This document shows, piece after piece, positions 14,679-40,571 of a stretch of 41,115 bases of DNA. Under the pieces are notes generated by a model. That model had not been told where the DNA came from and searched no databases. It saw nothing but the letters and a program-made list of their open reading frames with translations. The DNA is from Lachnospiraceae bacterium (GTDB lineage Bacteria; Bacillota; Clostridia; Lachnospirales; Lachnospiraceae), in assembly GCA_024403555.1 (NCBI GenBank), contig JAKSRP010000014.1:1-41115 (forward strand), given 5' to 3'. The translations under genes and the position numbers were made by a program. How positions within the stretch are numbered: the stretch's first letter is position 1; each line of letters begins with the position of its first letter.

Positions 14679-17015
14679 ATGACATTAAAAGATATCGCAA
14701 TTGGAAAAAGCGCAATTATAACAGAAGTTGGAGGAGAAGGCTCTTTACGTCAGCATTTTCTTGATATGGGTGTGATTCCGGGGGCAACCGCAACGGTTGT
14801 AAAATTAGCTCCGATGGGAGACCCCATGCAGCTTCGTATTCATGGATATGAACTGACCTTAAGACTTGCAGACGCAGAAAAGATAGGGGTAAAAGAGATT
14901 ACCAAAAATCCGGAACCAAAACGAGAACGAGTGAATAAACACATTCCACATCCGGGATACGGTGAAGGTGGAAAGTATCATGATAAAGAGGAAGAAGAAC
15001 CACTTCCAGAAGGGACGGTTCTTACCTATGCACTAGTTGGAAATCAGAACTGTGGGAAGACCACATTATTTAATCAGTTAACAGGATCGAATCAGCATGT
15101 CGGAAACTTTCCGGGCGTTACGGTTGATCGAAAGGATGGCGTAATTCGTGGCTATCCAGATACAAATATCACTGACTTGCCAGGTATTTATTCTATGTCT
15201 CCGTACACTGCAGAAGAACTGGTATCGAGAGATTTCGTGTTGAATCAAAAACCGAAAGCAATCATTAACATTGTTGATGCAACGAATATTGAACGTAACA
15301 TGTATCTGACCATGCAGCTTCTTGAGATGGACGTTCCGATGGTAATCGCACTGAATATGATGGATGAAGTTTTAGGTAATGGAGGATCCATCGATATCAA
15401 TGAAATGGAAGAGATGTTAGGTGTTCCAGTTGTTCCAATCTCCGCTGCGAAAAATCAGGGCGTAGATGAGCTGGTAAGACATGCGATTCACATCGCACAT
15501 TTCCAGGAAAAGCCTAGAAGACAGGATTTTTGTGATCAGGAAGAGAATGGTGGAGCAGTTCATCGCTGTGTCCATGCCGTTATTCATCTTATTCAAAACC
15601 GAGCAGACCAGACGGGACTTCCCGTTCGATTTGCAGCATCTAAGCTCATCGAAGGCGATGATACGATATTAGAAAAATTAGGGTTAGATGAATCTGAAAA
15701 GATTACATTAAATTATATTATCCAACAGATGGAAAAGGCCAGAGGGCTTGACCGAAGTGCGGCGATGGCTGATATGCGGTTTTCTTTCATTCAGAAGGTT
15801 TGTGATCAGACTGTAATCAAGCCAAAACAGAGCAAAGAAGCACTTAGAAGCCAGAAAATCGATGAGATTTTAACTGGTAAATATACAGCTATTCCAACAT
15901 TTATCGGAATTATGCTGCTGGTATTTTATCTGACCTTTAACGTAATCGGAGCATGGCTTCAGGGATTACTAGAAACTGGCATCGATCATTTTTCAAACAT
16001 GATTGGAGCGATTATGACTGCCAGCCATGTAAATGCTACCGTCCAGAGCTTAGTTTTAGATGGTATATTTTCAGGGGTAGGAAGTGTGTTAAGTTTCCTT
16101 CCGATCATCGTAACACTCTTTTTCTTCCTGTCTATTTTAGAAGATAGTGGATATATGGCGAGGGTAGCATTTGTCATGGATAAATTACTTCGAAAAATCG
16201 GTTTATCCGGACGAAGCATCGTGCCACTTTTAATTGGATTTGGTTGTACGGTACCGGCGGTTATGTCGACAAGAACCCTGCCATCCGAACGAGACCGTAA
16301 GATGACAATCTTACTGACACCATTTATGAGCTGTACAGCAAAGCTCCCAATCTATGCATTCTTTGTAAATGCGTTCTTCCCGGGAAAGGGAGGATTCGTC
16401 ATGGGAGGACTGTACCTGCTTAGTATTATAACGGGTATTATTGTAGCATTTATCTATAAAAAGACAATTTTTAAGGGAGAAGCAGTACCATTCGTACTTG
16501 AACTTCCAAATTACCGTTTTCCGGGAGCGAGAAATGTATGCCAGCTTCTTTGGGAAAAGGCAAAGGACTTTGTTTCGAAAGCTTTTACGGTAATTTTACT
16601 TGCAACCATTGTCATCTGGTTCTTACAGAGCTTTGATGGACATTTAAATCTGGTTGTGGATTCAAAAGAAAGCCTTCTTGCAGGCATCGCAAGCATCCTT
16701 GTACCAATCTTTAAACCGATTGGGTTGGGGGACTGGAAAATCTGTACTTCATTAATCAGTGGTTTTATTGCAAAAGAAAGCGTCGTTTCCACTTTACAGA
16801 TTCTCTATACAAAGGGTGTTGCCAACGTGATGAGTGCAGGAACAGCTGCAACGTTGCTTGTATTCAGTTTATTGTATACACCATGTGTGGCTGCAGTTGC
16901 ATCTGTTAAGCGTGAGCTTGGCGGAAAATGGGCTTTCCTTGTTGTGCTTTGGCAATGTGCTATTGCATGGATTGTTGCTCTTGGGGTACATATGATTTGC
17001 ACATGCTTTATGTAA
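14679..17015 (+). CDS. feoB: Ferrous iron transporter, FeoA-FeoB fusion
   Basis: Takes up Fe2+ across the cytoplasmic membrane. Residues 1-75 are a complete FeoA SH3-like domain (MTLKDIAIGKSAIITEVGG, HFLDMGVIPGA), joined by a charged linker (about 80-115) to FeoB. The FeoB part begins with a G domain: GNQNCGKTTLFNQLTG, VGNFPGVTVDRKDG, DLPGIYSMSPYTAEE, then NMMD, where G4 is usually NxxD. A helical region and two Gate domains follow, with GFGCTVPAVMSTRTL and FMSCTAKLPIYA, and the late SLLYTPCVAAVASVKREL. Most bacteria encode FeoA and FeoB separately; the fusion fixes 1:1 stoichiometry. No FeoC is visible. The ATG has AAAGGAATT upstream. Confidence 0.97.
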   Translation: MTLKDIAIGKSAIITEVGGEGSLRQHFLDMGVIPGATATVVKLAPMGDPMQLRIHGYELTLRLADAEKIGVKEITKNPEPKRERVNKHIPHPGYGEGGKYHDKEEEEPLPEGTVLTYALVGNQNCGKTTLFNQLTGSNQHVGNFPGVTVDRKDGVIRGYPDTNITDLPGIYSMSPYTAEELVSRDFVLNQKPKAIINIVDATNIERNMYLTMQLLEMDVPMVIALNMMDEVLGNGGSIDINEMEEMLGVPVVPISAAKNQGVDELVRHAIHIAHFQEKPRRQDFCDQEENGGAVHRCVHAVIHLIQNRADQTGLPVRFAASKLIEGDDTILEKLGLDESEKITLNYIIQQMEKARGLDRSAAMADMRFSFIQKVCDQTVIKPKQSKEALRSQKIDEILTGKYTAIPTFIGIMLLVFYLTFNVIGAWLQGLLETGIDHFSNMIGAIMTASHVNATVQSLVLDGIFSGVGSVLSFLPIIVTLFFFLSILEDSGYMARVAFVMDKLLRKIGLSGRSIVPLLIGFGCTVPAVMSTRTLPSERDRKMTILLTPFMSCTAKLPIYAFFVNAFFPGKGGFVMGGLYLLSIITGIIVAFIYKKTIFKGEAVPFVLELPNYRFPGARNVCQLLWEKAKDFVSKAFTVILLATIVIWFLQSFDGHLNLVVDSKESLLAGIASILVPIFKPIGLGDWKICTSLISGFIAKESVVSTLQILYTKGVANVMSAGTAATLLVFSLLYTPCVAAVASVKRELGGKWAFLVVLWQCAIAWIVALGVHMICTCFM

Positions 17016-17116: not shown

Positions 17117-18595
17117 ATGTACAAAATTGGAGTTTTAGGAGCTGGTACCTGGGGTATGGCTCTGGCAAGAATGCTTGCGAATGCAGGAAATGAAGTTCGT
17201 GTGTGGTCCGCTTTGGAACGTGAAGTGGAAGAGTTTTCTAAGACTAGAAGACATCCAAATTTACCGAAGATGATCATTCCGGACGAAATCATTTTTACAA
17301 AAAATATAGAAGATGTATGTACTGACGTGGATATTATTCTTTGTGCAGTACCGTCCCCATTTGTTCGTTCAACCATTGCTTCGGCAAGACCATTTATTAA
17401 AGATGGGCAGATTATCGTTGATGTAGCAAAGGGGATTGAAGCGAATACTTTATTTACCATGACACAGGTAATTATGAGTGAGATTAATAAAGATGGATCC
17501 CATGGAAATGTGAAATTAGTAGCACTTTCCGGACCTACTCATGCAGAAGAAGTTTCTCTGGATATGCCGACAACGATTGTTTCCGCCTGCCATGATATGA
17601 ATGCAGCTGAACTCGTGCAGGACATTTTCATGAATACTTGTATGCGTGTATACACAAATGTTGATATCTTAGGTGTTGAACTTTGTGGTGCGATGAAAAA
17701 TATCATTGCACTCGCGTCTGGTATTTCCGCTGGTCTTGGCTATGGAGATAATGCAAAAGCAGCGCTTATTACAAGAGGGATGTCTGAAATTACAAGATTA
17801 GGACTTAAGATGGGATGTATGGAACAGACATTCTCCGGTTTGGCTGGTATAGGGGATTTGATCGTAACTGCTACTAGTATGCACTCTCGTAATAACAAAG
17901 CAGGTTATCTCATTGGTTCCGGTATGACACCAGAAGAAGCAAAAAAAGAAGTAGGCATGGTCGTAGAAGGGATTAATGCTCTTCCAGCAGCAATGCGTCT
18001 TATGAGACATTACCATGTTGAGATGCCTCTTACTTATGCAATCAATGCTGTGATCAATGAAGGGGCAGATGCGGGTGAAACCGTGCGCAAATTGATGGAA
18101 CGTGGCAAAAAATCTGAAATCGATAAGTCCGTCTCCACATTAGATTTTGAAAGTTCTCTTTTAAAGAGCAAAAAAGATACTGGAATGAGAAGAGTCATGA
18201 CATATGGCGGATTTGACTTACTTCATTATGGACATATCAATTTACTTCGCCGTGCAAAGGCATTAGGGGATTATCTCATTGTTGGTCTGTCTACTGATGA
18301 ATTCCGTGCAAAGGAAAAGGGTGAACCTTGCTTCTTTGATTATCAGAAGAGAAAAGAACTCTTATTATCCACTCGTTATGTAGATTTAGTTATTCCAGAA
18401 GACAGCTGGTCTCAAAAGATTCCAAATATCAAGGAATATCATATCGATGTTCTTGTTATGGGAGATCATTGGAGAGGCAAGTTTGATTATTTAAGAAATT
18501 ATGGGGTTGATGTTATTTATCTTCCACGTACACCGGAAGTATCTACCACTATGATCAAAGAAGAGGTTAAGCAGGGGGAAAATGTACCTGACTAG
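17117..18595 (+). CDS. Fusion of glycerol-3-phosphate dehydrogenase and glycerol-3-phosphate cytidylyltransferase (GpsA-TagD)
   Basis: Residues 1 to about 345 are GpsA: NAD(P)-binding GVLGAGTWGMALARML, CAVPSPFVRS, DVAKGIE, LSGPTHAEEV, and the catalytic-lysine segment GVELCGAMKNIIALASG. Residues 357-492 (136, against about 130 for free TagD) are a complete cytidylyltransferase: MTYGGFDLLHYGHINLLRRA with the HxGH motif, MGDHWRGKFD, and YLPRTPEVSTTMI, the RTxxxSTT motif. The frame is uninterrupted across the 10-residue junction. The two halves perform consecutive reactions: DHAP to sn-glycerol-3-phosphate, then CTP-dependent activation to CDP-glycerol, the donor for glycerol-phosphate polymers. 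The start was set at 17117, behind GAGG, where the Rossmann motif begins; the open frame extends upstream into feoB without support. Confidence 0.93.
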   Translation: MYKIGVLGAGTWGMALARMLANAGNEVRVWSALEREVEEFSKTRRHPNLPKMIIPDEIIFTKNIEDVCTDVDIILCAVPSPFVRSTIASARPFIKDGQIIVDVAKGIEANTLFTMTQVIMSEINKDGSHGNVKLVALSGPTHAEEVSLDMPTTIVSACHDMNAAELVQDIFMNTCMRVYTNVDILGVELCGAMKNIIALASGISAGLGYGDNAKAALITRGMSEITRLGLKMGCMEQTFSGLAGIGDLIVTATSMHSRNNKAGYLIGSGMTPEEAKKEVGMVVEGINALPAAMRLMRHYHVEMPLTYAINAVINEGADAGETVRKLMERGKKSEIDKSVSTLDFESSLLKSKKDTGMRRVMTYGGFDLLHYGHINLLRRAKALGDYLIVGLSTDEFRAKEKGEPCFFDYQKRKELLLSTRYVDLVIPEDSWSQKIPNIKEYHIDVLVMGDHWRGKFDYLRNYGVDVIYLPRTPEVSTTMIKEEVKQGENVPD

Positions 18596-18631: not shown

Positions 18632-19858
18632 ATGACTTTATTGGGGAAATTAAAAGAGAAAAAGCGTCCAATGACGAAAAAAGAAAGTTTGATATTATTG
18701 TTAGTCATCATTTTTGTGGCATTCTTGATTATTCTTCCTTCTGTCATTCGTCAGGATAATGATAAAAAATATTATATGTCTTATGCTGAGTTTGTCGATA
18801 AGATGGAAGATGATAAGGTTATTTCTGTAACCATTACCGATGATAAAGTTACTTTTGAGTTAAATAATGGGGAAAAACGCAATACAGATAATCCGGATTA
18901 TGACACCTTTAAGAGAGACCTTCTAAAAAGAGGGATTGAAGTGAAGGATGGAAAAAGTATGTCTGGAGCGATTGTATTTGTAACGGATATGCTGTTTAAT
19001 ATCATTTTCTTTGCTATTATTGGGTTTTTGATCTTAAAATTCTGGCGTACGTTTGGCGGCGGTGAGTTTAAAGTAAGTGATGGTACGGATGTGTCCTTTG
19101 ATGATATTTGTGGCATGGAGGATGTGAAGGAAGAGATGATGAGTGCTGTTGAGATTTTGAAAAATCCACAGCGCTTTGCTTCCATGGGGATTCGTCCTCT
19201 GCGAGGTATCGTATTAGAAGGTCCTCCGGGAAATGGAAAGACTTTATTTGCCAAGGCCTTAGCTACAGAATGCGATGTGAATTTTATAGCTGCTAAGGGT
19301 GCAGATTTCCAGAGTGCACTTATGAGCATGGGTGCAGTTAAAACTAAGAGTCTTTTTAAGAAAGCAGCAAGAAAGAAACCTTGTATCGTATTCATAGATG
19401 AATTTGACAGTATTGGTGAGAGAAGAAATTATACCGGTACTGGAATTGATAAAGAAAATAATCGTATCATTACGACGATGTTAAATATGATGGATGGATT
19501 TGAAGAAGGTGATGGCGTGCTCGTTATTGCAGCAACAAATTCCTATCATTCCTTAGATCCTGCATTGATTCGACCAGGTCGTTTTGATTTGAAGTATCAC
19601 ATTGGAAATCCAGATATTCCGACGATTTTACAGCTGATTGAGCTTTATACGATTGGAAAAGGCATTTCTTCCGATTTAGATAAGGAAGAATCAGCGAAAT
19701 CTTTTGAAGGATTAAGCTGTGCGGCGATTGAAACAATCATCAATGAAGCGTCGTCTATGGCAATTCATAATGGAGGAAGAACAATCGGCCCAGTCTTAAT
19801 TGAAGAGGCAAGAAGAAGAACTGGTCTTTTACCAACTGAGCATGGAGAAGAAGCATGA
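18632..19858 (+). CDS. FtsH-like membrane AAA ATPase lacking the protease domain
   Basis: The 408-residue protein has the FtsH layout: transmembrane helix (20-38), extracytoplasmic domain with YAEFVDKMEDDKVISVTI, second helix (115-137), then an AAA module with GMEDVKEEM, Walker A GPPGNGKT (197-204), Walker B IVFIDE (252-257), second region of homology NRIITTMLNMMDGF, and arginine fingers in LIRPGRFD (R314, R317). It ends after the AAA lid (SFEGLSCAAIETIINEA), where FtsH would continue about 200 residues with the HExxH zinc protease; no such motif is present. In the pore loop, FtsH FVG is replaced by LMS (GADFQSALMSMGAVKTK). It therefore looks like a pseudo-protease remodeller or scaffold. GGGAG precedes the ATG, 36 bases after the GpsA-TagD gene; its TGA overlaps the next ATG. 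Confidence 0.9.
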   Translation: MTLLGKLKEKKRPMTKKESLILLLVIIFVAFLIILPSVIRQDNDKKYYMSYAEFVDKMEDDKVISVTITDDKVTFELNNGEKRNTDNPDYDTFKRDLLKRGIEVKDGKSMSGAIVFVTDMLFNIIFFAIIGFLILKFWRTFGGGEFKVSDGTDVSFDDICGMEDVKEEMMSAVEILKNPQRFASMGIRPLRGIVLEGPPGNGKTLFAKALATECDVNFIAAKGADFQSALMSMGAVKTKSLFKKAARKKPCIVFIDEFDSIGERRNYTGTGIDKENNRIITTMLNMMDGFEEGDGVLVIAATNSYHSLDPALIRPGRFDLKYHIGNPDIPTILQLIELYTIGKGISSDLDKEESAKSFEGLSCAAIETIINEASSMAIHNGGRTIGPVLIEEARRRTGLLPTEHGEEA

Positions 19859-20871
19859 AAGTAATTTTTCTTGATGTGGATGGGGTATTAAACTCCATGG
19901 CCTATTATCAAAACGTTACGGATGTCTTTGAAGAGGCGATTGATCCGGATAAGGTGAAAAATCTGGCTCGAATTGTTGAGGAGACAGGGGCTAATATTGT
20001 ATTAACCTCATCCTGGCGTGGTGGCTGGGAAAAGGACATTTTGCAATGTGGAGAAGATGGTGCGATTTTAACTCGTGCTCTTGCACAGGAGAAATTGACG
20101 ATTTTTGATAAAACAGGTGCATCTAGCGTTTATCGCAGGGAAGGGCGTTCGCTTGAGGTGCTTGAATGGATGAAACTGTGTCCGAAACTTTATGGAGAAA
20201 AGGTAGAACAGTTCGTTATTATCGATGATAATGATTTTGGCTGGGCAAAGCATAATCTGGATGCATATTGGGTGGAAACAGACTTTTTAGGTCCGGCTCT
20301 TGATCAAGCACATACAGACGCGGCAATTGAAATCCTGAATAGACCGGTAAAACGAAAGATGATTTTTTTAGTAGAACAGGATTATAAAAAATTTTATGAT
20401 GGATTGATTGCAAAGCTTGGATTAAAACCAGAGCTGATGAGTCTGATAAAAAAGGTAAATAAGCTGATTACGTTGTTTATGTATCTGGCCTATCCGCTTA
20501 CAGTAGCCTGGATGATTTATCAGCGTGATCTTCGAGTAATCAAGGTTATCCTTGTTCCTGGAATCTTTTTTGTACTGGTGTCGTTTTTTCGAAAGAAGAT
20601 TAACCGAAAGCGCCCGTATGAAACCTGGGAAATCGATAATCTGATCAAAAAAGATACAAAAGGACAATCTATGCCGAGCAGGCATGTGTTTTCTTCGACG
20701 ATCATATCTATGGCATTTTGTTTTTTATGCTGGCCAATTGGTGTGATTTGTTTAGGCCTTAGTGCCTTAGAGGCTGTCATTCGTGTAGTTGGCGGTGTTC
20801 ATTATCCTTCGGATGTAGTTGTGGGATATGTAGTTGGGATTTTGTCTGGACTTTTGATTTTTATACTTTAA
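19855..20871 (+). CDS. HAD-family domain fused to a PAP2 membrane phosphatase
   Basis: Residues 1 to about 165 form a HAD-like domain (nucleophile motif FLDVDGVLN with D7 and D9, NIVLTSSWRGGW, VIIDDND) resembling the HAD domain found in RNA-repair-type fusions. Residues 195-338 form an integral-membrane PAP2 domain with hydrophobic helices and the three motifs: RKKINRKRP, PSRHVFSS and IRVVGGVHYPSD. PAP2 enzymes dephosphorylate lipid phosphates such as phosphatidate, phosphatidylglycerol phosphate or undecaprenyl diphosphate. There is no signal peptide, so the HAD part is probably cytoplasmic. The start ATG overlaps the stop of the FtsH-like gene (ATGA), so the two are translationally coupled. 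A small GCGAAA-TTG-TTTCGC hairpin follows the stop. Substrate unknown. Confidence 0.87.
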   Translation: MKVIFLDVDGVLNSMAYYQNVTDVFEEAIDPDKVKNLARIVEETGANIVLTSSWRGGWEKDILQCGEDGAILTRALAQEKLTIFDKTGASSVYRREGRSLEVLEWMKLCPKLYGEKVEQFVIIDDNDFGWAKHNLDAYWVETDFLGPALDQAHTDAAIEILNRPVKRKMIFLVEQDYKKFYDGLIAKLGLKPELMSLIKKVNKLITLFMYLAYPLTVAWMIYQRDLRVIKVILVPGIFFVLVSFFRKKINRKRPYETWEIDNLIKKDTKGQSMPSRHVFSSTIISMAFCFLCWPIGVICLGLSALEAVIRVVGGVHYPSDVVVGYVVGILSGLLIFIL

Positions 20872-28538: not shown

Positions 28539-29003
28539 ATGAAAATTTCAACAAAAGGACGATATGCTCTTCGAATTGTCATTGATTTAGCGAAAAACAG
28601 TCAGGAACATTGTGTGCCGTTAAAAGACATTTCCAAAAGACAGCATATCACAATCAAATACATGGAACAGATTATGCCTCTTCTTACAAAGGCAGGTTAT
28701 GTTAAGAGCTACCGTGGAAATAATGGAGGATATAAGCTTAACAAACCGGCAGAAGAACTCTCAGCAGGCATGATTCTTAGAGCAGCAGAAGGCAGCTTAT
28801 CACCGAATGCATGCTTGGATGATGAGATTAATACATGTCCACGATGTGGTCTTTGCGATACCATTGGCTTTTGGGAAGGCTTAAAAGCCGTGGTGAATGA
28901 ATATACCGACAGTGTGTCCATCGCAGACTTAGTCAATGAAGAAAAACGAAAAGATAAAATTATGGAAACATTCAAGAATAAACAGGAAGAAAACGATGAA
29001 TAA
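28539..29003 (+). CDS. Rrf2-family transcriptional regulator with Fe-S-type cysteines
   Basis: A 154-residue winged-helix regulator. The N-terminus (MKISTKGRYALRIVIDLA), the recognition-helix region (LKDISKRQHITIKYMEQIM) and the wing (YRGNNGGYKLNKPAEEL) are typical of IscR/CymR-like Rrf2 proteins. A cysteine group, ACLDDEINTCPRCGLC, lies where IscR and NsrR bind an iron-sulfur cluster, so sensing of Fe-S status, redox or NO is plausible; CymR lacks such a group. The start at 28539 follows AGGAG. The last 8 bases overlap the start of the NUDIX-M15 gene, so the two are co-translated. Confidence 0.92.
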   Translation: MKISTKGRYALRIVIDLAKNSQEHCVPLKDISKRQHITIKYMEQIMPLLTKAGYVKSYRGNNGGYKLNKPAEELSAGMILRAAEGSLSPNACLDDEINTCPRCGLCDTIGFWEGLKAVVNEYTDSVSIADLVNEEKRKDKIMETFKNKQEENDE

Positions 29004-30141
29004 ATCAGATTTAATAGCGAAATTAGAACAGTTTCTTCCATATAATGAGCAGGAGCAAAAGGATAAAGCGTTTATTTTACGCTTGTTAAATGCTTCCGAA
29101 GACGTTTTTTTCCGTTCGAATGACGTGGCGCATATGACGGCTTCTGCGTGGGTAACGAATAAAACACATGACAAGATTTTGATGATCTATCATAATATTT
29201 ATGATTCCTGGGCGTGGCTTGGTGGTCATGCAGACGGGGACGAGGATTTACTTCGTGTTGCCTTAAAAGAGGTGCGAGAAGAGAGTGGGCTTACGAACAT
29301 TGTGCCCGTGACCGATGACATTTTCAGTGTTGAAGTGCTTACGGTCAATGGTCACGAAAAGAGAGGCGAATACGTGCATTCCCATCTTCATCTTAATGTG
29401 ACCTATCTTTTTGAGGCGGATGAAGAAGATGAGATTTTCATCAAACCAGATGAAAATAGTAATATTGGATGGTTTTCTTTAGATGGCGCCATTGAAGCAT
29501 CATCTGAAGAGTGGTTTGTTAAGAGAGTGTATCCAAAGCTTAATGAAAAGCTTAACGCCTTATTTGCAGCAGAACCGATTTCGGACGAAACATTTGCTCG
29601 TATGAAAGGAAAATCTTTTGCTGATGACTGTGTGATTCCAAGAGAAGAGCTTCGATATCTTCGCGTGCTCCACTGGGGATTTGATGAAAAGCCTCACAAA
29701 GGAGAACTAGTAGTGCATGAATCCGTTGCGGATGAAATCGTACTTATAATGAAGAAATTGTATGAAAACCGCTATCCGATAGAGAAGATGAGACTGATTG
29801 ATGAGTATGATGCGGATGATCTAAAGTCCATGGGGGATAATAATTCTTCGGCATTTTGTTACCGTGTCATTGCCCATACGGACATCATTTCCCAGCATGG
29901 AAGAGGGCTTGCGATTGATATCAATCCGCTTTATAATCCGTATGTGACGGACATCGAGTTTACGCCGGTTGAAGGTGAGGCGTATCTTGACCGAAGCAAG
30001 GATTTTCCTTATAAAATCAATCATGAGGATCTCTGCTTTAAACTGTTTAGCGAATATGGTTATGAGTGGGGTGGAGACTGGGAAGACAGCAAGGATTACC
30101 AGCATTTCCAGAAGGTAAAAAGAGAGAAACCTATCTATTAG
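28996..30141 (+). CDS. NUDIX hydrolase fused to an M15-family D,D- or L,D-peptidase domain
   Basis: The 381-residue protein has a NUDIX domain (about 35-190) with the box G-x5-E-x7-KEVREESGL (77-99; the usual R of REUxEE is K91). A second domain follows (about 216-381) of the M15 peptidoglycan carboxypeptidase type: LHWGFDEKPHKGELVV, MRLIDEYDADDLKSM, SQHGRGLAID matching SxHxxGxAxD with probable zinc ligands H301 and D308, and DYQHF with D367 and H370. M15 enzymes cut peptidoglycan stem peptides and usually work outside the cell, yet there is no signal peptide or membrane helix. A cytoplasmic role in muropeptide recycling or nucleotide-linked precursor turnover is an inference. The start at 28996 overlaps the Rrf2 gene and is preceded by AGGAAG. 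Confidence 0.88.
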   Translation: MNKSDLIAKLEQFLPYNEQEQKDKAFILRLLNASEDVFFRSNDVAHMTASAWVTNKTHDKILMIYHNIYDSWAWLGGHADGDEDLLRVALKEVREESGLTNIVPVTDDIFSVEVLTVNGHEKRGEYVHSHLHLNVTYLFEADEEDEIFIKPDENSNIGWFSLDGAIEASSEEWFVKRVYPKLNEKLNALFAAEPISDETFARMKGKSFADDCVIPREELRYLRVLHWGFDEKPHKGELVVHESVADEIVLIMKKLYENRYPIEKMRLIDEYDADDLKSMGDNNSSAFCYRVIAHTDIISQHGRGLAIDINPLYNPYVTDIEFTPVEGEAYLDRSKDFPYKINHEDLCFKLFSEYGYEWGGDWEDSKDYQHFQKVKREKPIY

Positions 30142-38387: not shown

Positions 38388-40571
38388 ATGATTTATTATG
38401 TAGATCAGCAGGCAATTCAGACTGGTGCTGGTACAAAAGAACAGCCATTTTTAACAATTTCTGAAGCAGCAGCCATTGCAAAAGCAGGCGATCAGATTAT
38501 CATCATGCCTGGTATTTATGAAGAATGGATCAATCCGGCAAATGGTGGTGAAGAAGACGCACCAATCGCTTACCGTGCATATAAACCAGGAACAGTGACC
38601 GTTACAGGTGCTATGAAAGCAAAAGGCTGGGAAGCATTTGATGGCGACGTATGGATGCTTACGATCGATAATAAAATCTTTGGAGAGTACAATCCATATA
38701 CGACAATTATCCATGGAGACTGGATTTCTGAGAGTAATCCGGTTCATACAGGTGAGATATATTTAAACAATAAGAGTTTTTATGAAAAACAGACGTTAGA
38801 AGAAGTAATGGATCCAACTGTTTATGGATATTCCTGGGATCAGGATCAGACATTATATTGCTGGTTTACTGAGCAGGACGAAGAGCATGATACAACCATC
38901 CTTTATGCAAACTTCCAGGGAGCAGATCCAAATGAAGAAGAGGTTGAAATCAATGTGAGAAGACGATGTTTCTTCCCGGATCGAACAGGCATTAATTATA
39001 TTACGATTTCTGGAATTGCCTTTGAAAAGGCAGCAACTCAGTGGGCACCGCCAACGGCATTTCAGGATGGTATGGTAGGCCCTCACTGGTCAAAAGGCTG
39101 GGTAATCGAAGATTGCGAAATCTCTAATTCCAAGTGTAGTGGTATCTCTCTTGGGAAATATTTACAGCTGGAAAATGATAATAAATGGTCTACATGGGGG
39201 TATAAAGATGGTACTCAGACTGAGCGTGATAACATTTGCCAGGCAGTCAATGAAGGTTGGAGCAAGGAAACGATCGGCTCTCATATCGTAAGAAACTGTC
39301 ATATTCATCATTGTGGACAGACGGGTATCGTAGGTCATCTTGGCGGCGTATTCTCTACCATTGAAAACAATCACATTCATAATATTAATAATAAACAGGA
39401 TCTGGCAGGTGCAGAAATCGGTGGAATCAAGATGCACGCAGCCATTGATGTAACATACAAAAATAATCACATCCACCATTGTACCCGTGGTCTCTGGCTT
39501 GACTGGCAGGCACAGGGCACTCGTGTGACCGGAAACTTATTCCATGACAACTGCCCACCAGAAGGCACACAGTTTGGCAACGACGTATTAGCCATTGGAG
39601 AAGATATTTTCGTGGAAGTTTCTCACGGGCCAACATTAATTGACAATAACTTTTTATTGTCGAAAGCATCCCTTCGAATTCCAACTCAGGGTGTTGCAAT
39701 TGTTCATAACTTTATTGCAGGATCGTTTACCTGTGTTGGCAAAGGCGTGGACAATGGAACCGTGAACTTTCCATCACCACGTTACACACCTTATCACGTG
39801 CCACATGATACAAAAATTGCTGGTTTCATGACATTCCTTCACGGAGATATTCGTTTTTACAACAACATTTTTGTTCAGCAGGAGATTCGTGAAGACTTAG
39901 AAACATTTGCCGTGGAAAAGAGCAACGGTGAGCAACAGTATATCTGCGGCACAATTCCTTACGAAGCTTATCCAACCTTTAAAGAATGGAAGGCACGTTT
40001 TGCAGCGAATCGTCCTTTATCCGGCATTGACCGTGACCGTTATTATGATCATCTTCCAGTCTGGTATGAAGGTAATGTATATTTTAATGGTGCCAAACCT
40101 TGTAGTAAGGAAAATGCTATTGTAAAGGATGAACAGGTTCTCTGGTCTTTATCAAAAGAAGACGAAAAGATGATTTTTACATCCAATGTGTTTGATTTTA
40201 TTGGCGATATAACAGAAGAACTGATTGATACACAAAAATTAGGATGGGCATTTGAACCAGAACAGAAATTTGAAGATCGTGATGGAAAAGAAATCATATT
40301 CAACAAAGACTATTTTGGAAAGAAACGAAAGAGCATTCTTCCGGGACCTTTAGCCAAAGTATCCGATACATGGGCTCTGTTCGATGATCATGTAGCAGGC
40401 AAATATCCTTGCCCATGCTGTGGCTGTCATACATTAAATGAGGGCGAAGGCTCCTATGAGATCTGTCCAGTCTGTGGATGGGAGGATGACCGTGTTCAGA
40501 AAAATGATCCAGAATTTCAAGGCGGTGCAAACGAAGAATCTTTAAAGGAAGCAAAAGAAATACTTGGATAG
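38388..40571 (+). CDS. Right-handed parallel beta-helix protein with C-terminal CPCC zinc-ribbon-like domain
   Basis: A 727-residue protein. The N-terminal part (MIYYVDQQAIQTGAGTKEQP, then FLTISEAAAIAKAGDQIIIM, PGIYEEW) is the entry of a right-handed parallel beta-helix as in pectate lyase-like enzymes. It continues with helix rungs such as CEISNSKCSGISLG, NCHIHHCGQTGIVGHLGG and NNHIHHCTRGLWLDW. The fold usually binds or cleaves polysaccharides. The last 56 residues are a cysteine-rich CPCC domain (YPCPCCGCHTL, ICPVCGWEDD, likely zinc-binding), which is normally a separate small protein. No signal peptide is present, so it should act on oligosaccharides inside the cell. I cannot name the glycosidic bond or a GH/PL family. 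AGAAGGAG precedes the ATG. Confidence 0.87.
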   Translation: MIYYVDQQAIQTGAGTKEQPFLTISEAAAIAKAGDQIIIMPGIYEEWINPANGGEEDAPIAYRAYKPGTVTVTGAMKAKGWEAFDGDVWMLTIDNKIFGEYNPYTTIIHGDWISESNPVHTGEIYLNNKSFYEKQTLEEVMDPTVYGYSWDQDQTLYCWFTEQDEEHDTTILYANFQGADPNEEEVEINVRRRCFFPDRTGINYITISGIAFEKAATQWAPPTAFQDGMVGPHWSKGWVIEDCEISNSKCSGISLGKYLQLENDNKWSTWGYKDGTQTERDNICQAVNEGWSKETIGSHIVRNCHIHHCGQTGIVGHLGGVFSTIENNHIHNINNKQDLAGAEIGGIKMHAAIDVTYKNNHIHHCTRGLWLDWQAQGTRVTGNLFHDNCPPEGTQFGNDVLAIGEDIFVEVSHGPTLIDNNFLLSKASLRIPTQGVAIVHNFIAGSFTCVGKGVDNGTVNFPSPRYTPYHVPHDTKIAGFMTFLHGDIRFYNNIFVQQEIREDLETFAVEKSNGEQQYICGTIPYEAYPTFKEWKARFAANRPLSGIDRDRYYDHLPVWYEGNVYFNGAKPCSKENAIVKDEQVLWSLSKEDEKMIFTSNVFDFIGDITEELIDTQKLGWAFEPEQKFEDRDGKEIIFNKDYFGKKRKSILPGPLAKVSDTWALFDDHVAGKYPCPCCGCHTLNEGEGSYEICPVCGWEDDRVQKNDPEFQGGANEESLKEAKEILG

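Follow-up and report, generated by a model that had tools for sequence, protein, structure and literature searches.

What does a cell use a protein for when one half belongs to an enzyme family that makes glycerol-3-phosphate and the other to a family that activates it? The window, the whole 41,115-nucleotide stretch of Lachnospiraceae DNA analyzed here, contains one gene for glycerol-3-phosphate dehydrogenase (GpsA) and CTP:glycerol-3-phosphate cytidylyltransferase (TagD) in a single polypeptide. The initial annotation proposed that the fusion channels glycerol-3-phosphate toward CDP-glycerol and away from phospholipids, implying either a second, free GpsA for lipids or a branch point controlled within this enzyme. 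The genome of the window is called G000; the genomes and loci compared with it carry G and L numbers. The gene, its parts and its neighbors are as follows.

14679..17015, + strand: upstream gene, FeoB-type with a FeoA domain, native to the genus (67-70% identity in four congeners)
17117..18595, + strand: GpsA-TagD fusion gene, 492 amino acids plus stop in one uninterrupted frame (translation)
17117..18124, + strand: GpsA half, residues 1-336, a "clade II" GpsA (Pfam, NCBIfam, tree)
18125..18184, + strand: inter-domain linker of 20 residues, 337-356, recognizable in most fusions, most of those with a pseudo-TagD (see below) included
18185..18592, + strand: TagD half, residues 357-492, accelerated, with near-invariant residues changed
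18224..18235, + strand: HYGH (HxGH motif), residues 370-373, kept
18527..18550, + strand: RTPEVSTT (RTxGISTT-type motif), residues 471-478, kept
18632..19858, + strand: downstream gene for an FtsH-like AAA protein with an FtsH extracellular domain

The initial annotation described the gene correctly. The unbroken frame of 492 codons holds a full GpsA, a short linker and a TagD, HYGH and RTPEVSTT are both in place, and Pfam and NCBIfam scores put the halves in the GpsA and TagD families. Pfam matches over cut-off were NAD_Gly3P_dh_N at residues 3-163 (142 bits), NAD_Gly3P_dh_C at 183-323 (174 bits) and CTP_transf_like at 362-482 (75 bits). The protein passed the NCBIfam GpsA subfamily models NF000942 (396 bits, cut-off 257) and NF000940 and narrowly missed the narrower GpsA equivalog NF000941 (403.6 vs 423). 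Residues 360-484 passed the TagD equivalog TIGR01518 with 174.5 bits (cut-off 165.4), on which three sister fusions score 195-205 bits; the TagD domain spans approximately residues 357-484. The frame is open 5′ as far as 16928 (555 amino acids), the extra stretch overlapping feoB, and alignments to fusion homologs from the scan of the best 80 loci begin at residues 1-4 of 492. Residues K105, K194, N195, D247, T251, R258 and N259 of the GpsA half, which we take to be active-site positions, are invariant among 29 fusions. One linker column holds Glu in 33 of 37 rows, six of these rows being pseudo-TagD. The window gene combines the marks of the fusion family: a clade II GpsA, the linker and a TagD in one frame.

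Like the NAD(P)H-dependent GpsAs (PRK00094 group; solved structures 3k96 and 1z82), the GpsA half is full length with both Pfam domains. It differs in its C-terminal TagD and in its clade, which a quick tree of 103 rows separates from 17 canonical Lachnospiraceae GpsAs with a support of 100; identity to the canonical GpsA of congeners is about 50%. Instead, the GpsAs of fusions group with stand-alone ones from Faecalibacterium, Erysipelotrichaceae and others. The TagD half is like TagD/TarD (1coz, 2b7l) in passing TIGR01518 and in keeping HxGH, K44 and RTxxxSTT. It differs in being fused behind GpsA, in changes at T9, N41, K46, D80 and D94, and in evolving much faster than its sister.

The architecture recurs in other genomes. 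Searching for it across Lachnospiraceae genomes, as the initial annotation advised, gave full-length fusions in at least three of 200 family genomes (sampled nearly one per genus) among the matches listed: G000, G183 and G071. The window fusion is 74% identical over its full length to that of the congener G183 and 62% to that of G071, and two of the five genomes of its genus carry one. G510 joined these when the TagD half was searched against 392 genomes of the order, and the best 80 loci were kept from a scan of a species-genome collection. Altogether, fusions with the same domain order and a mostly recognizable linker occur in at least 30 other genomes, so the gene is neither unique nor an error. 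The count of at least 31, window included, is of fusions with a TagD match above 120 bits and is not usable as a frequency; it takes in L106, whose TagD is partly degraded (145.5 bits, below the TIGR01518 cut-off), and L125, which ends at a contig edge. Hosts include Clostridium sartagoforme, Faecalibacillus faecis, Clostridium spiroforme, Massilimicrobiota, Ruminococcus flavefaciens, Lachnospiraceae RM5 and Eggerthella sinensis; F. faecis, C. spiroforme An567 and Massilimicrobiota An134 are isolates. At three loci gpsA and tagD are separate neighboring genes. In Blautia sp. XA-2221 (L147:10001-11463), gpsA is broken into two frames and followed by a separate tagD.

The fusions are scattered in the GpsA tree, where 28 of 99 inner branches are starred, and the TagD tree is similar. 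The starred branches force at least three changes, a number that a single gain with two losses could explain, and an AU test did not reject the fusions as one clade (p 0.42).

We then compared the place of the ordinary gpsA. In congeners G183 and G200 the gene order is der, plsY, gpsA and a gene of aspartate-aminotransferase type. G000 keeps the other three genes in this order inside one unbroken contig; gpsA is absent, and the gap from plsY to the aminotransferase gene is 83 bp. A PF07479 search of the whole G000 genome (86% complete) returned the fusion (177 bits) and two distant paralogs (80 and 69 bits), and found no second full-strength GpsA. These GpsA-like paralogs lie at L003:1348-2382 and L004:1480-2523, one of them beside a putative LacI-type regulator. 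Of the 31 fusion genomes, 22 yielded no full-strength GpsA other than the fusion, and nine have a second copy (G183, G510, G554, G555, G564, G570, G574, G576 and G577). The 22 include G000 and the isolates F. faecis, C. spiroforme An567 and Massilimicrobiota An134. Some second copies may have been missed in these counts, because completeness is known just for G000, G183, G071 and G510; drafts can miss gpsA, since the congener G202 (87% complete) shows neither the fusion nor a canonical GpsA.

The second, free GpsA for lipids expected from the initial annotation is thus not implied, since the fusion is the sole full-strength GpsA found in 22 of the 31 genomes, G000 among them. With the canonical gpsA missing and second copies this scarce, lipid synthesis probably often depends on the fused enzyme as well, unless glycerol kinase supplies it. 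Seventeen of the 31 genomes, with G000 among them, have a glycerol kinase over cut-off; of the 22 with a sole GpsA, 11 do and could therefore draw on glycerol too. Faecalibacillus faecis yielded no glycerol kinase match and no second GpsA. The alternative offered in the initial annotation, a branch point within the fused enzyme, survives.

The two halves of the window protein have changed at different rates. Four substitutions at near-invariant TagD positions are listed here, with residue numbering checked against 1coz; the role of K46 is taken from PMC8262930.

18209..18211, + strand: residue G365; T in 62 of 66 other TagDs (B. subtilis T9), by alignment
18323..18325, + strand: residue E403; K in 65 of 66 others (K46, a CDP-glycerol phosphate contact), by alignment
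18425..18427, + strand: residue N437; D in 66 of 66 others (D80), by alignment
18467..18469, + strand: residue H451; D in 65 of 66 others (D94), by alignment

In addition, N41 (N in 54 of 66 others) is replaced by R. At TagD columns at least 93% conserved, the window deviates 8 times, L106 12 times and the next sequence 4 times. Where conservation among the remaining fusions is 90%, the window copy differs at 9 of 76 TagD columns and 1 of 106 GpsA columns. The corresponding deviations in TagD and GpsA are 1 and 2 for the G183 sister, 17 and 2 for L106, and 9 and 8 for L133; L133 is a caveat for relaxation, having as many TagD deviations as the window but nearly as many in GpsA too. In three-way comparisons of the window and the G183 sister with eight outgroups, the window TagD has 26-33 changes of its own vs 2-4 in the sister, and the GpsA half 15-26 vs 14-20. 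Tajima's test gave p 7e-6 for TagD (28:3) and p 0.22 for GpsA (25:17). The end branch of the window TagD is 0.79 (median 0.12) and that of its GpsA 0.23 (median 0.26). Recombination that replaced the TagD half from an unsampled source would give a long branch as well. The grouping of the window TagD with L106 in the TagD tree was set aside, flagged as two long branches meeting.

The window TagD is not evolving freely, since pN is 0.21 and pS 0.79 against its sister. It retains K44, HxGH, R113 and the STT motif. According to PMC8262930, K44 and K46 hold the CDP-glycerol phosphates in B. subtilis TagD, and H14, H17 and R113 are essential. The window has lost K46 alone of these five, which suggests that its TagD is drifting or changing and not plainly dead. 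Because the kept motifs are joined by a pass of TIGR01518, this half may be active.

Given these observations, we consider it on balance probable that a surface-polymer fusion took over as the housekeeping GpsA in G000 and that its TagD half is being released from constraint. Fusions of this kind, often placed in surface-polymer loci of gut Bacillota, would lead from DHAP to CDP-glycerol in two steps. The GpsA half would reduce DHAP to glycerol-3-phosphate, which would leave the enzyme and feed phospholipids, and in intact members the TagD half would turn part of it into CDP-glycerol. G000 appears to have lost its ordinary gpsA, and the fusion, now beside feoB, would act as the housekeeping GpsA for phospholipids. 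The TagD half of the window fusion would be escaping constraint, and its activity is probably weakened or altered; a separate TagD, able to make CDP-glycerol and lying beside TagF-type transferases, may be the reason. The sequence itself shows the fusion, the vacant gpsA place, the separate TagD and the unequal rates of the two halves. From these we infer what the halves catalyze, the takeover and why the TagD half relaxed, and the order of events from two genomes, G000 and G183.

That separate TagD lies at C12:77985 of G000 (204 bits) with three Glyphos_transf matches adjoining; a fourth match is on another contig. It is sister to a stand-alone TagD of G183 (support 99/97). The initial annotation had suggested looking for TagB/TagF-like CDP-glycerol glycerophosphotransferases in the same genome, and the four PF04464 genes of this type in G000 answer that; PF04464 occurs in 26 of the 31 fusion genomes. 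The separate TagD fits relief of the fused half by redundancy. As a rule for decay, redundancy was not borne out. A second TagD over cut-off is present in nine of the 31 genomes (G000, G183, G555-G558 and G573-G575), and in the eight others than G000 the fused TagD is unaccelerated. The L106 genome, with the most degraded fused TagD, has neither a second TagD nor a Glyphos_transf match; there, lost use of CDP-glycerol may matter more. Intact fused TagDs also occur in genomes without Glyphos_transf (G552, G561, G567 and G571).

The fast change could alternatively be adaptation, the TagD half having changed its substrate to activate another alcohol phosphate. The core motifs are kept, as this would require, and the loop N-W-N-x-K-x-K-K of the sister has become R-A-K-E-K-G-E-P, which aligns with K-G-P-P of the ethanolamine-phosphate cytidylyltransferase 3elb. 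The charge is reversed at K46, a CDP-glycerol phosphate contact, and a spare TagD by itself predicts no decay elsewhere. However, the change extends to D94 and D80, which nearly all TagDs conserve, the overall pattern is like that of the degraded halves of L106 and L126, and no polymer or head-group genes were recognized adjoining the window copy. We regard a change of substrate as unlikely, though it deserves a hearing.

Further along the path of decay are L126, L127, L128, L129, L131 and L151, in which GpsA is followed by a shortened C-terminal domain that we call pseudo-TagD. Pfam found no cytidylyltransferase in the C-terminal domains of L126, L128 and L131, and TIGR01518 gave 32-44 bits (cut-off 165) on pseudo-TagD domains. 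Comparing profiles of these domains and of intact tails, with some linker sequence in the comparison, nevertheless gave 99.6% (E 1.7e-24). The pseudo-TagD domains have lost HxGH and lack the RTxxxSTT region. For ten pairs among five of these fusions (L131 left out), dN/dS was 0.30-0.52 in the domain and 0.17-0.32 in GpsA, rough values at sizeable dS; three close pairs of intact TagDs gave about 0.01-0.04. By this comparison the pseudo-TagD domain is relaxed, yet still under some constraint and not free.

These domains raise the prospect that fusions repeatedly displace the housekeeping gpsA and that the cytidylyltransferase half becomes a retained dead domain serving the dehydrogenase, for example as a CTP/CDP-glycerol sensor or a dimer scaffold. 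The window would then be a midpoint and the L126-L129/L151 clade the end. A pseudo-domain dN/dS below 1 in all ten pairs speaks for retention, and we hold this general scheme to be quite improbable. For the window itself, takeover with release of the TagD half is still the account we prefer.

The tie of the architecture to surface polymers, drawn in the initial annotation, holds across the family. At least one polymer gene lies in the fetched flanks of 19 of the 30 other fusion loci vs 2 of 41 stand-alone relatives (Fisher p 8e-8, kinship not corrected for). The flank seeds were TagF, LicD, priming transferase, flippase and DUF4422 proteins, and the seed families were confirmed; leaving out the two loci that gave seeds, the count is 17 of 28 fusions. 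Flanks of at least 9 kb were available for 27 of the 30 fusion loci and for 32 of the 41 stand-alone ones; the 41 leave out five further stand-alone loci, L010-L014. The contrast is limited to the seed families, because a group 1 glycosyltransferase, outside these families, adjoins L013 and L014. Polymer genes are in the flanks of none of six pseudo-TagD loci and one of four split or adjacent loci. Among 143 neighboring ORFs (at most three on each side of 30 fusions; ORFs above 900 amino acids or past the size limit left out), the commonest Pfam matches were Glyphos_transf (8), LicD (7), Polysacc_synt (7) and Glycos_transf_2 (6). The G183 fusion is flanked by a priming sugar transferase on one side and DUF4422 and LicD genes on the other.

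The window fusion sits between feoB and the FtsH-like gene, and no polymer-locus or head-group genes were recognized around it. Next to the G183 polymer cluster is a block of genes of TrkA, TrkH and other types; G000 has this block too, at 64-78% identity, without that cluster beside it. A conserved site beside feoB was considered and rejected, as feoB neighbors differ among the four congeners (two loci end at contig edges). No peptidase domain was found in the FtsH-like protein (18632-19858), and no close homolog of it in the four congeners; stronger matches are 32-36% identical. Other ORFs of the window include one with HAD_SAK_2 and PAP2 phosphatase domains (19855-20871), one matching both NUDIX and Peptidase_M15_4 (28936-30141), and a beta-helix/GH120-insertion-type protein with a C-terminal Cys_rich_CPCC domain (38388-40571). 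No tRNAs and no Rfam matches over gathering score were found in the window. A promoter scan predicted fewer promoters than in shuffles, and a terminator scan gave 2 vs a shuffle mean of 0.9.

These surroundings bear on the channeling proposed in the initial annotation, by which both halves are fully active and glycerol-3-phosphate passes to CDP-glycerol while another enzyme serves lipids. Both halves retain their catalytic motifs, lipids in G000 could be supplied through glycerol kinase, and eight of the nine fusions in genomes with a second full-strength GpsA lie in polymer loci; channeling may hold in such genomes, for example G183. Fusions outside polymer loci make up 11 of the 22 that are the sole GpsA vs one of the nine others (p 0.10), so the tie between the two is only a trend. 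For the window copy the inference fits poorly: no second full-strength GpsA was found in G000 and 21 other fusion genomes, the gpsA place is empty, no polymer genes were recognized around the fusion, and its TagD half is relaxed with a separate TagD present. An analogue also speaks against it, and we judge channeling in the window protein improbable.

The analogue, the closest one studied, is Bcs1, the bifunctional CDP-ribitol synthase of Haemophilus influenzae, which combines an IspD-type cytidylyltransferase with an SDR, families unrelated to GpsA and TagD. Like the fusion, it joins a reductase to a cytidylyltransferase within a single chain and yields a CDP-polyol for a surface polymer, reducing first and cytidylylating second (PMC10299916). 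Its substrate is another one, and the unrelated families make it an analogue rather than a relative. The title of Zolli 2001, as cited in PMC10299916, describes it as "without substrate channeling".

A misassembly, misbinning or frame error in the metagenome assembly is very improbable: G000 is a draft (81 contigs, 86% complete, 4.9% contamination) and the 3.9 kb from the fusion to the HAD gene, a short stretch, correlates only 0.46 in tetranucleotides with the left part of the window, but homologous fusions in at least 30 other genomes, isolates among them, rule out the joining by chance or by assembly error that the initial annotation named as its refutation, a full-length sister with 74% identity exists within the genus, the neighboring FeoB is 67-70% identical to those of four congeners, and the left 16.5 kb correlates at 0.59-0.78 with four stretches of other G000 contigs vs 0.46-0.50 with four congener stretches. 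In a search for a mobile origin, 194 plasmid and 148 phage records matched, but no single place in any of them covered at least 80% of the query; scanning viral contigs with the TagD half turned up no relative.

Other oxidoreductases are joined to TagD-type cytidylyltransferases as well, at L085, L086, L087, L012 and L110. They differ from the window in belonging to other oxidoreductase families, and the Gfo/Idh type has the reverse order. L085:795-2138, L086:909-2261 and L087:581-2455 encode a TagD-type cytidylyltransferase followed by a Gfo/Idh/MocA oxidoreductase, L087 with two cytidylyltransferase stretches. Many frames of about 450 amino acids in the order scan may be this same fusion, for which L085-L087 were tested. 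Fusions of a short-chain dehydrogenase and a cytidylyltransferase lie at L012:2663-3844, directly downstream of a clade II gpsA, and at L110:18501-19670, about 7 kb past a GpsA-TagD fusion.

Among the open PMC papers listed, we found no description of a GpsA-TagD fusion. PMC12786226 mentions a TagD domain in a protein of a Bulleidia extructa polysaccharide locus, which may have the same architecture. Genome databases probably hold the architecture under automatic names.

Membrane lipids and glycerol-phosphate surface polymers part ways at glycerol-3-phosphate. Should the fusion often be the sole GpsA, as found in 22 of the 31 genomes here, one polypeptide would carry both branches and its regulation would be directly testable. 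Annotators could wrongly infer CDP-glycerol synthesis from fusions with a failing TagD half. The series of intact, drifting and degenerate TagD halves would offer a natural experiment on a bifunctional enzyme losing the need for one of its activities.
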